From positions 19,842-83,841 of the forward strand of contig CACEAQ010000002.1 in the NCBI GenBank assembly GCA_902557605.1: 64,000 bases of DNA. Reading direction: 5' to 3'. The stretch is from an uncultured Pelagibacteraceae bacterium. Its GTDB lineage: Bacteria; Pseudomonadota; Alphaproteobacteria; Pelagibacterales; Pelagibacteraceae. Below, piece after piece: positions 47,671 through 48,172 of the stretch. Position 1 is the first letter of the stretch. Every line of letters starts with the position of its first letter. Position numbers and translations under genes: made by a program. Under the pieces are notes generated by a model. That model was not told the DNA's origin, ran no database searches, and saw only the letters and a program-made list of their open reading frames with translations.

Positions 47671-47826
47671 TTATTTGTCTATATCATTTTTTTCGTTTTT
47701 TCGTATTAGAAATCCCGAACCTATCCCCACTGCAATGGCTGATATAACCCACGAGTATTCTTGTTCGCTGAAAAGAACTAATAGACCAAAACCTATAATG
47801 ATTACTCCTAAAAGCTTATTATCCAT
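47671..47826 (-). CDS. 51-aa two-helix membrane small ORF
   Basis: Minus-strand ATG at 47826 opens a 51-residue ORF: MDNKLLGVIIIGFGLLVLF followed by a charged turn and WVISAIAVGIGSGFLI, ending RKNEKNDIDK. Two hydrophobic helices with positive C-terminal residues fit a small inner-membrane protein. It ends 2 nt before the flavodoxin-fold gene. Missing from the track because it is under 60 aa. Confidence 0.6.
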   Translation of the reverse strand: MDNKLLGVIIIGFGLLVLFSEQEYSWVISAIAVGIGSGFLIRKNEKNDIDK

Positions 47827-47854
47827 TGACAAATATAAACCTTATATTAAAGTT

Positions 47855-47947
47855 TACTTACCCATCTGTCATGGGAAAAAAGACTCGGCATTCGACATGC
47901 CGGACCTATAAAGGGTTGCAAAGTCGGTAGAAATGAAAGGAGTTGCT
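47855..47947 (+). ncRNA. structured 5' leader with pseudoknot upstream of 63-aa gene
   Basis: Hairpin 1: CCCAT (47861-47865)/ATGGG (47871-47875) with loop CTGTC. Hairpin 2: CGGCAT (47886-47891)/ATGCCG (47897-47902) with loop TCGAC. All five loop bases of hairpin 2 can pair with GTCGG (47923-47927), one of them as G-U, giving an H-type pseudoknot just before AAAGGAG and the ATG at 47948. A TTGACA lies at 47826-47831 and TATATT at 47843-47848, though spacing is short. This looks like a cis-regulatory RNA; it matches no riboswitch I recognise. Confidence 0.5.
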
Positions 47948-48139
47948 ATGAATAGATTTAGCAAACTGTATGGAAATTCTGCCGTTAAAAAAGCTGAGCA
48001 GAAACTCTCAATGCAGTTAAGTAAAAACCAAAAAGCCCCCGAGGCTAACGCCAATGGAACGGCTGGTTATATGGTTAAAAACGGAAAAAATTCCGGAAAA
48101 ATTTTGAAGCATTTAAAAACCGATAAAAATCAGCTTTAA
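47948..48139 (+). CDS. 63-aa protein of unknown function with strong SD
   Basis: The track starts at 47933; the ATG at 47948 has AAAGGAG 6 nt upstream and is preferred. The product (MNRFSKLYGNSAVKKAEQKL...) is basic, Lys/Asn/Gln-rich and has no membrane segment. Third positions look more C/G-rich than in neighbouring genes (GCC, CCC, GAG, AAC codons), which may reflect high expression. A structured leader precedes it and a hairpin terminator follows. Family not recognised. Confidence 0.65.
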   Translation: MNRFSKLYGNSAVKKAEQKLSMQLSKNQKAPEANANGTAGYMVKNGKNSGKILKHLKTDKNQL

Positions 48140-48150
48140 ACTTTTATAGG

Positions 48151-48172
48151 GTGGGGACTTTAAAATCCCCAC
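48151..48172 (+). terminator. terminator hairpin after 63-aa gene
   Basis: GTGGGGA (48151-48157) and TCCCCAC (48166-48172) form a 7-bp stem around CTTTAAAA; a short T-containing stretch follows. It closes the small gene's transcript before rlmN. Confidence 0.7.

Follow-up and report, generated by a model that had tools for sequence, protein, structure and literature searches.

Tandem H-type pseudoknots ahead of short basic protein genes in SAR11 bacteria and marine phages, a candidate nitrogen-responsive leader RNA

In cyanobacteria, the glutamine-I (glnA RNA, RF01739) and glutamine-II (Downstream-peptide RNA, RF01704) riboswitches work as ON switches ahead of small-protein genes, for example that for IF17 (PMC6316151, PMC6698751), and gifB, encoding a glutamine synthetase (GS) inactivating factor, is under the control of a glutamine riboswitch (PMC6316151). 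Glutamine-II RNAs precede open reading frames (ORFs) of 17-100 codons, and the modules of guanidine-II (mini-ykkC) looked at first like protein-binding elements (PMC2864571). The SAM-V riboswitch is known in Pelagibacter, and the available portion of the HTCC1062 SAR11 structured-RNA survey describes no motif like the one reported here (PMC2704228). Likewise, a literature search found no description of a third glutamine riboswitch class.

The locus studied lies in a 64,000-nucleotide stretch of DNA (the window) from contig C2 of an incomplete 0.66-Mb Pelagibacteraceae (SAR11) genome; all features described are on the plus strand unless stated. The leader stands out by composition, with a GC content of 0.452 against 0.30 (top 0.8% of windows). 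A promoter-like pair, TTGACA (47826-47831) and TAAAGT (47848-47853) separated by a 16 nt spacer, matches at 10 of 12 positions; the scan found three such sites where 1.9 were expected. TTGACA and the region of TAAAGT are also present in most leaders of the window genus. From this pair, transcription is predicted to start near 47860, just 5' of the first hairpin, so that the predicted start lies upstream of both hairpins of the leader; the initial annotation had held a start downstream of both to speak against its proposal. The TTGACA hexamer also abuts the probable start codon of a divergent minus-strand gene at 47671-47824 (47822-47831 of the window).

By its conserved pairings, the leader is two consecutive H-type pseudoknot modules of one design. 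Each comprises a stem ending in AU, a loop of 4-5 nt ending in C, then AU and the 3' stem strand, followed by an A-rich linker and a strand complementary to the loop. In module 1, the hairpin P1 (CCCAT/ATGGG, loop CTGTC, 47861-47875), which is conserved in 71 distinct leaders, is followed by the linker AAAAAA (47876-47881), and the pseudoknot PK1 (47868-47884) pairs GTC (47868-47870) with GAC (47882-47884). In module 2, the hairpin P2 (CGGCAT/ATGCCG, loop TCGAC) occupies 47886-47902 and the pseudoknot PK2 (47893-47926) pairs CGAC (47893-47896) with GTCG (47923-47926) across the linker GCAAA (47918-47922). The two hairpins had been correctly placed by the initial annotation, which had also paired the loop TCGAC (47892-47896) with GTCGG (47923-47927); this pairing has four Watson-Crick pairs and one T.G and ends 8 nt before AAAGGAG. 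It had recognised a single H-type pseudoknot near the Shine-Dalgarno (SD) sequence, which covariation confirms, and had missed the one formed by hairpin 1, the modules being two in tandem. An alternative fold through ACCC/GGGT pairings, also suggested there, gave way to an additional third hairpin within module 2, P2b (GACC/GGGTT, 47903-47917), which covaries in relatives. P2b is optional: the window clade has it, and it is absent from the compact form, which both modules take in phages and in most of the other clades. In minimal form a module measures about 23 nt, and compact modules are about 23-25 nt each (for example ACCATCCACATGGTAAGAAAGTGG and CTCATCTACATGAGTTAAAAGTAGG).

The SD sequence AAAGGAG (47936-47942), an SD-like form of which is kept in the leaders of nearly all relatives, is preceded by an ATG at 47933 and followed by the gene for a basic protein of 63 amino acids (47948-48139, beginning MNRFSKLYGNSAVKK). 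Across leaders the SD lies downstream of the pseudoknot, at a distance of 8 to about 25 nt. An anti-SD strand common to the leaders was looked for by eye, and none conserved across clades was found. The codons of the gene are richer in C and G than those of its neighbours, as had been noted (GC3 of 0.36 against 0.17-0.27). The terminator that had been attributed to the gene corresponds to a real inverted repeat, GTGGGGACTTTAAAATCCCCAC (48151-48172), with palindromic but sequence-divergent counterparts in relatives; since no T-run passed the plus-strand scan, it is only a probable terminator stem.

Compensatory changes were found in both stems and pseudoknots among relatives, as the initial annotation had proposed to check. 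Across 60 distinct cores, PK1 occurs as GTC:GAC (36), CAC:GTG (18) and CTC:GAG (6), and is never unpaired, although PK1 pairing played no part in sequence selection. PK2 occurs as CTAC:GTAG (26), CGAC:GTCG (19), TCGC:GCGA (6), CGC:GCG (6), GATC:GATC (2) and CCAC:GTGG (1); the parser required PK2 pairing, and failed on only one of the 71 leaders (L020/L096). With AGC:GCT, ATC:GAT, GTAC:GTAC, GCC:GGC and GTCC:GGGC at other loci, PK2 shows about eleven pair combinations overall, and at one of its pairs all four Watson-Crick types are observed. The stems vary likewise: P2 appears in relatives as CGGCAT/ATGCCG, CTGCAT/ATGCAG, CCGCAT/ATGCGG, AGGCAT/ATGCCT, CAGCAT/ATGCTG, GCTCAT/ATGAGT and GCCGAT/ATCGGT, and P2b as GACC..GGGTT, GACTC..GAGTT, GACTCC..GGGAGTT and GATCC..GGGATT. 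Both modules thus have the two crossing helices with compensatory changes that define an H-type pseudoknot.

Because a joint MAFFT alignment of compact and inserted forms (A2) misplaced module 2, the former were aligned on their own (A3, A7) and the latter tallied by script. Of 486 cells in an alignment of 27 sequences with the pseudoknots entered, 98.1% were paired, and 9 of 18 pairs changed on both sides. Two-sided changes numbered 68 cells against a shuffled mean of 17.9, with none of 500 shuffles as high, and sliding the partner strands reduced pairing to 17-32%. The one leader on which the parser failed comes from a single genome (G032, isolate AG-349-C11, on a 377,540-base contig) in which the small gene is truncated at codon 21; here the 3' strands of the pseudoknots are mutated (GAC to AAC and GTCGG to GTTGG) and the stems remain, which provides an informative natural control for relaxed constraint. 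Chance occurrence of the strict-module tandem was seen on neither strand of the window, nor in 20 Markov-resampled windows. Covariation carries the structural case, because the single-sequence folding energy of the leader is not unusual (z of -0.66); minimum free energy folding, which cannot show pseudoknots, was dropped in its favour. Beyond AU, the last C:G pair and the A residues of the linkers, few positions are invariant, which is less invariance than expected for a ligand pocket and counts against a ligand-binding reading.

No tandem-pseudoknot leader, in the window or at the other loci, matched any Rfam 15 family; at permissive E-values only chance eukaryotic or small-RNA matches appeared. 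RF01739 in particular was not matched at the gathering score in the window, in the tandem loci L029, L124, L134, L141, L152, L160 and L193, or in L286, L292, L318, L319 and others, nor was RF01704 or any preQ1, SAM-II, SAM-V or guanidine-III model in the leaders searched. The tandem pseudoknot is a real class of leader, supported by covariation, and apparently one so far undescribed.

The downstream protein, which had been called unrecognised, is indeed unnamed, and belongs to a family shared by phages and SAR11, phrog_32989 (function unknown; E=1.6e-6 for the window protein). Of 12 members tested, 11 match this phage profile, the best at 2.4e-12; 32 of 61 relatives carry homologues, as do 129 of the 297 order genomes. 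The most conserved part of the family is NGTSGYxxKxGxNxGKxLKH. Searches of Pfam and NCBIfam with the family gave nothing convincing, and a PDB search gave no significant match for the protein; an AlphaFold model (pLDDT 68) shows a helix at residues 3-26 and a flexible tail, and is too poor for a fold search.

Pseudoknot modules stand before five families of short, basic proteins, spread over SAR11, marine phages and a second order of Alphaproteobacteria; for most of the five, no similarity to each other or to any known family could be detected. In the SAR11 order, a compact-form covariance model finds one tandem element per genome where it is present, and the real hits precede the window gene family except in G061 and G064, where a different basic protein of 48 amino acids follows. 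In the second order, 21 of 32 genomes carry one tandem element; at the 18 loci readable by a simple pattern it precedes a third protein kind with the signature RVWDxSENRWGYK. Viral contigs carry the element ahead of kinds one and three, and also ahead of two further kinds with 29-37 amino acids. Three viral contigs (L319, L323 and L328) carry four modules in a row before a basic ORF of 29 amino acids, MTMLHALRNYQRQSWRKRQNSLFTRLVLR, with the pseudoknot pairs GTC:GAC, CAC:GTG, GTC:GAC and GTC:GAT. These counts are lower bounds, because the compact models miss the window's own inserted form; for this reason too the phylum-wide search, in which compact model R2 found no match in 299 genomes drawn from the phylum, is no census. 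Searches of isolate phages returned neither a tandem pseudoknot nor homologues of three query proteins.

Some model matches were set aside as chance: those in G040, G043, G044, G053 and G055 (30.6 bits), of which the three read lie in ribE/ribB-like coding DNA, and the single modules inside coding DNA in viral L329 and L330. The third protein kind (38-54 amino acids, full signature NIIKFNxxxxxIPxxxxRVWDxSENRWGYK) occurs once per genome in the second order (L275-L277, L422-L438) and is also widespread among phage operons, where it mostly lacks the RNA leader (viral L292, L318, L320-L327). Distant paralogues of the small protein lacking the RNA leader were seen in the SAR11 genus g6 (L220-L241); in many of these, a frame ending CGCGESF (IscA/HesB-type-like) ends just upstream.

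In marine phages the family of the 63-amino-acid protein also follows the glutamine-I riboswitch: RF01739 was found at 39-62 bits in 12 loci, which had looked like glutamine-I riboswitches beforehand, by the cmscan run that left the tandem loci unmatched, and a pattern for the RF01739-type leader before the same family gave 24 distinct protein/leader entries. Among the 297 genomes of the SAR11 order, RF01739 occurs only in G076 and G190, both times directly before this gene family, and their congeners G133 and G143 carry the tandem pseudoknot instead. A leader swap at one orthologous locus was considered and rejected, as the neighbours differ. Since the gene neighbourhoods and positions of the family differ between genera, the leaders were exchanged between homologous genes that are probably mobile and may have been carried by phages. 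In the protein tree, which is poorly resolved because the protein is short, a well-supported phage clade (100/98) mixes both leader types and forces at least two leader changes. Moreover, both leader types lie in phages just downstream of a TAAATA late-promoter-like hexamer (14 of 18 and 21 of 22 loci, against a background of 3%). Exchange is shown for the window family (a) only, because phage homologues of the third kind (c) mostly lack any leader and none has the glutamine-riboswitch pattern. On two phage contigs, a freshwater-2 RNA (RF02980) lies downstream of the small gene controlled by a glutamine riboswitch (L146 2045-2128, L163 1709-1780).

A further nitrogen association comes from SAR11 paralogues without the RNA leader, which have the dyad GCATAnCWGnnnTGCA or a near variant upstream. 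Across 20 genomes, 17 distinct sites match the dyad exactly, one of them inside coding DNA, and none match the reversed pattern. Three genomes of the window genus have the dyad ahead of gltD, and in G061 and G064 it borders the tandem pseudoknot; a half dyad precedes glnA in four genomes, and one dyad-bearing gene in genus g6 encodes a PLP-dependent decarboxylase. Its TGCA-N9-TGCA spacing is reminiscent of that of NtrC sites, and the dyad is possibly a SAR11 nitrogen operator of NtrC/NtrX type. The dyad loci are L456-L477 (L458 1501), together with G006:C4:25398, G010:C3:91484 and G020:C1:414359. The window genus has glutamine synthetase; PII was detected in none of 24 of its genomes and GlnE in none of 39 relatives, controls being positive, and such an absence is weak for any single genome because single-cell genomes are incomplete. 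None of the tandem pseudoknots found stands ahead of glnA, amt or any other named nitrogen enzyme, and the glnA leaders examined are without tandem modules; this counts against the nitrogen reading.

That the element is a cis-regulatory leader of the short basic gene is strongly supported by the covariation. A nitrogen-sensing role is likely from gene context, because a glutamine riboswitch and a gltD-type operator serve the same gene family, and glutamine is the leading candidate, because it is the ligand of the riboswitch class with which the tandem pseudoknot alternates; binding of glutamine by the leader is plausible. We favour, at a probability of about one half, a translational switch responding to nitrogen status with L-glutamine as its leading ligand. 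Each module would most likely bind L-glutamine, or else a nitrogen metabolite closely tied to it, the SD sequence would be left free by the pseudoknots in their folded state, and the short basic protein would be made when nitrogen is plentiful, as with an ON switch. The protein might then restrain nitrogen assimilation, for example at glutamine synthetase or a related step, although this last part is speculative. Imposing the pseudoknot state in folding calculations raised the mean accessibility of the SD from 0.60 to 0.74 (44 leaders up and 6 down, of 69), a hint of an ON switch from a crude test.

The same nitrogen association would also suit a riboswitch for another nitrogen-tied ligand, such as 2-oxoglutarate, glutamate, arginine, ornithine or a polyamine. 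One gene can be served by different RNA classes with different ligands, and the decarboxylase gene with its dyad in genus g6 fits such a ligand; however, the exchange with glutamine-I before the same family, and the shared promoter arrangement in phages, point to the same input, and we consider a different ligand unlikely. The initial annotation had left the choice between a riboswitch and a protein-binding leader, and here the context favours a nitrogen-responsive, riboswitch-like element over autoregulation. For the latter, in which each of the short basic proteins, or one RNA-binding protein supplied by the host, would bind the modules and control translation, the pseudoknot of T4 gene 32 is the comparison. 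All downstream products are short and basic, small repeated modules suit protein binding, and a weak N-terminal helix may be common to families (a) and (b) (hhalign P 0.004, probability 8.5%). Yet the five families are mostly dissimilar, so that repeated convergence on one RNA design would be needed, and family (a) additionally has a metabolite riboswitch; autoregulation seems to us somewhat less probable again than a different ligand.

Constitutive pseudoknots, acting as a 5' stabiliser or ribosome-standby structure that raises expression without sensing, would agree with a predicted start at the very base of hairpin 1 and with A-rich linkers that look structural. A generic stabiliser would not be expected to come in tandem and four-fold arrays, to be exchanged with a true riboswitch or to be confined to nitrogen-linked genes, and we regard this reading as improbable. 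Beyond the nitrogen-status switch itself, we put forward only tentatively, as a proposal that we hold to be somewhat more doubtful than the switch, that the leaders are a third and structurally unrelated glutamine riboswitch class, consisting of arrays of two to four pseudoknot aptamers of about 23 nt that control short basic nitrogen-regulatory proteins, and that are shared and traded among SAR11, the second order of Alphaproteobacteria and the phages of these bacteria.

SAR11 rank with the most abundant ocean cells, and the window genus has neither PII nor GlnE detectable, which makes the way in which it restrains nitrogen assimilation a question of interest. Because this covariation-supported RNA class stands ahead of short basic genes that elsewhere have a glutamine riboswitch or an operator of gltD type, the idea that a leader of about 50 nt binds glutamine is amenable to direct test. 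Finding both leader types ahead of the same proteins in phages suggests, furthermore, that viruses read or steer the nitrogen status of their hosts.

Among known systems, the glutamine-I riboswitch is closest in setting: it precedes the same small-protein family, again as a 5' leader near the start codon, is found in SAR11 as well as in marine phages, and stands behind TAAATA-type late promoters in the phages. In structure it differs, being a three-way junction with a loop E motif (PMC6698751) where the leaders here have two H-type pseudoknots, and its sequence is different; the tandem-pseudoknot leaders show no sequence resemblance to glutamine aptamers. Glutamine-II is likewise pseudoknot-based and placed ahead of short ORFs, but it is a single cyanobacterial aptamer whose conserved core nucleotides cluster in the pseudoknot helix, whereas the modules here are repeated two to four times and their pseudoknot strands covary freely. 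The cyanobacterial GS inactivating factors IF7 and IF17 are, like the proteins here, small, and no homology to them was detected in Pfam or NCBIfam. Guanidine-II shares the very small repeated modules, which in that class are hairpins with ACGR loops rather than pseudoknots and precede other genes. The preQ1-I, SAM-II, SAM-V and guanidine-III riboswitches are also small H-type pseudoknots near the SD, with conserved ligand pockets and Rfam models of their own; unlike them, the present leaders are built of tandem modules with the SD downstream of, and not inside, the pseudoknot. The preQ1-I aptamer, at 34 nt, is larger than the module of about 23 nt described here, and if these modules are aptamers, they would belong with the smallest found in nature and would occur there as arrays.
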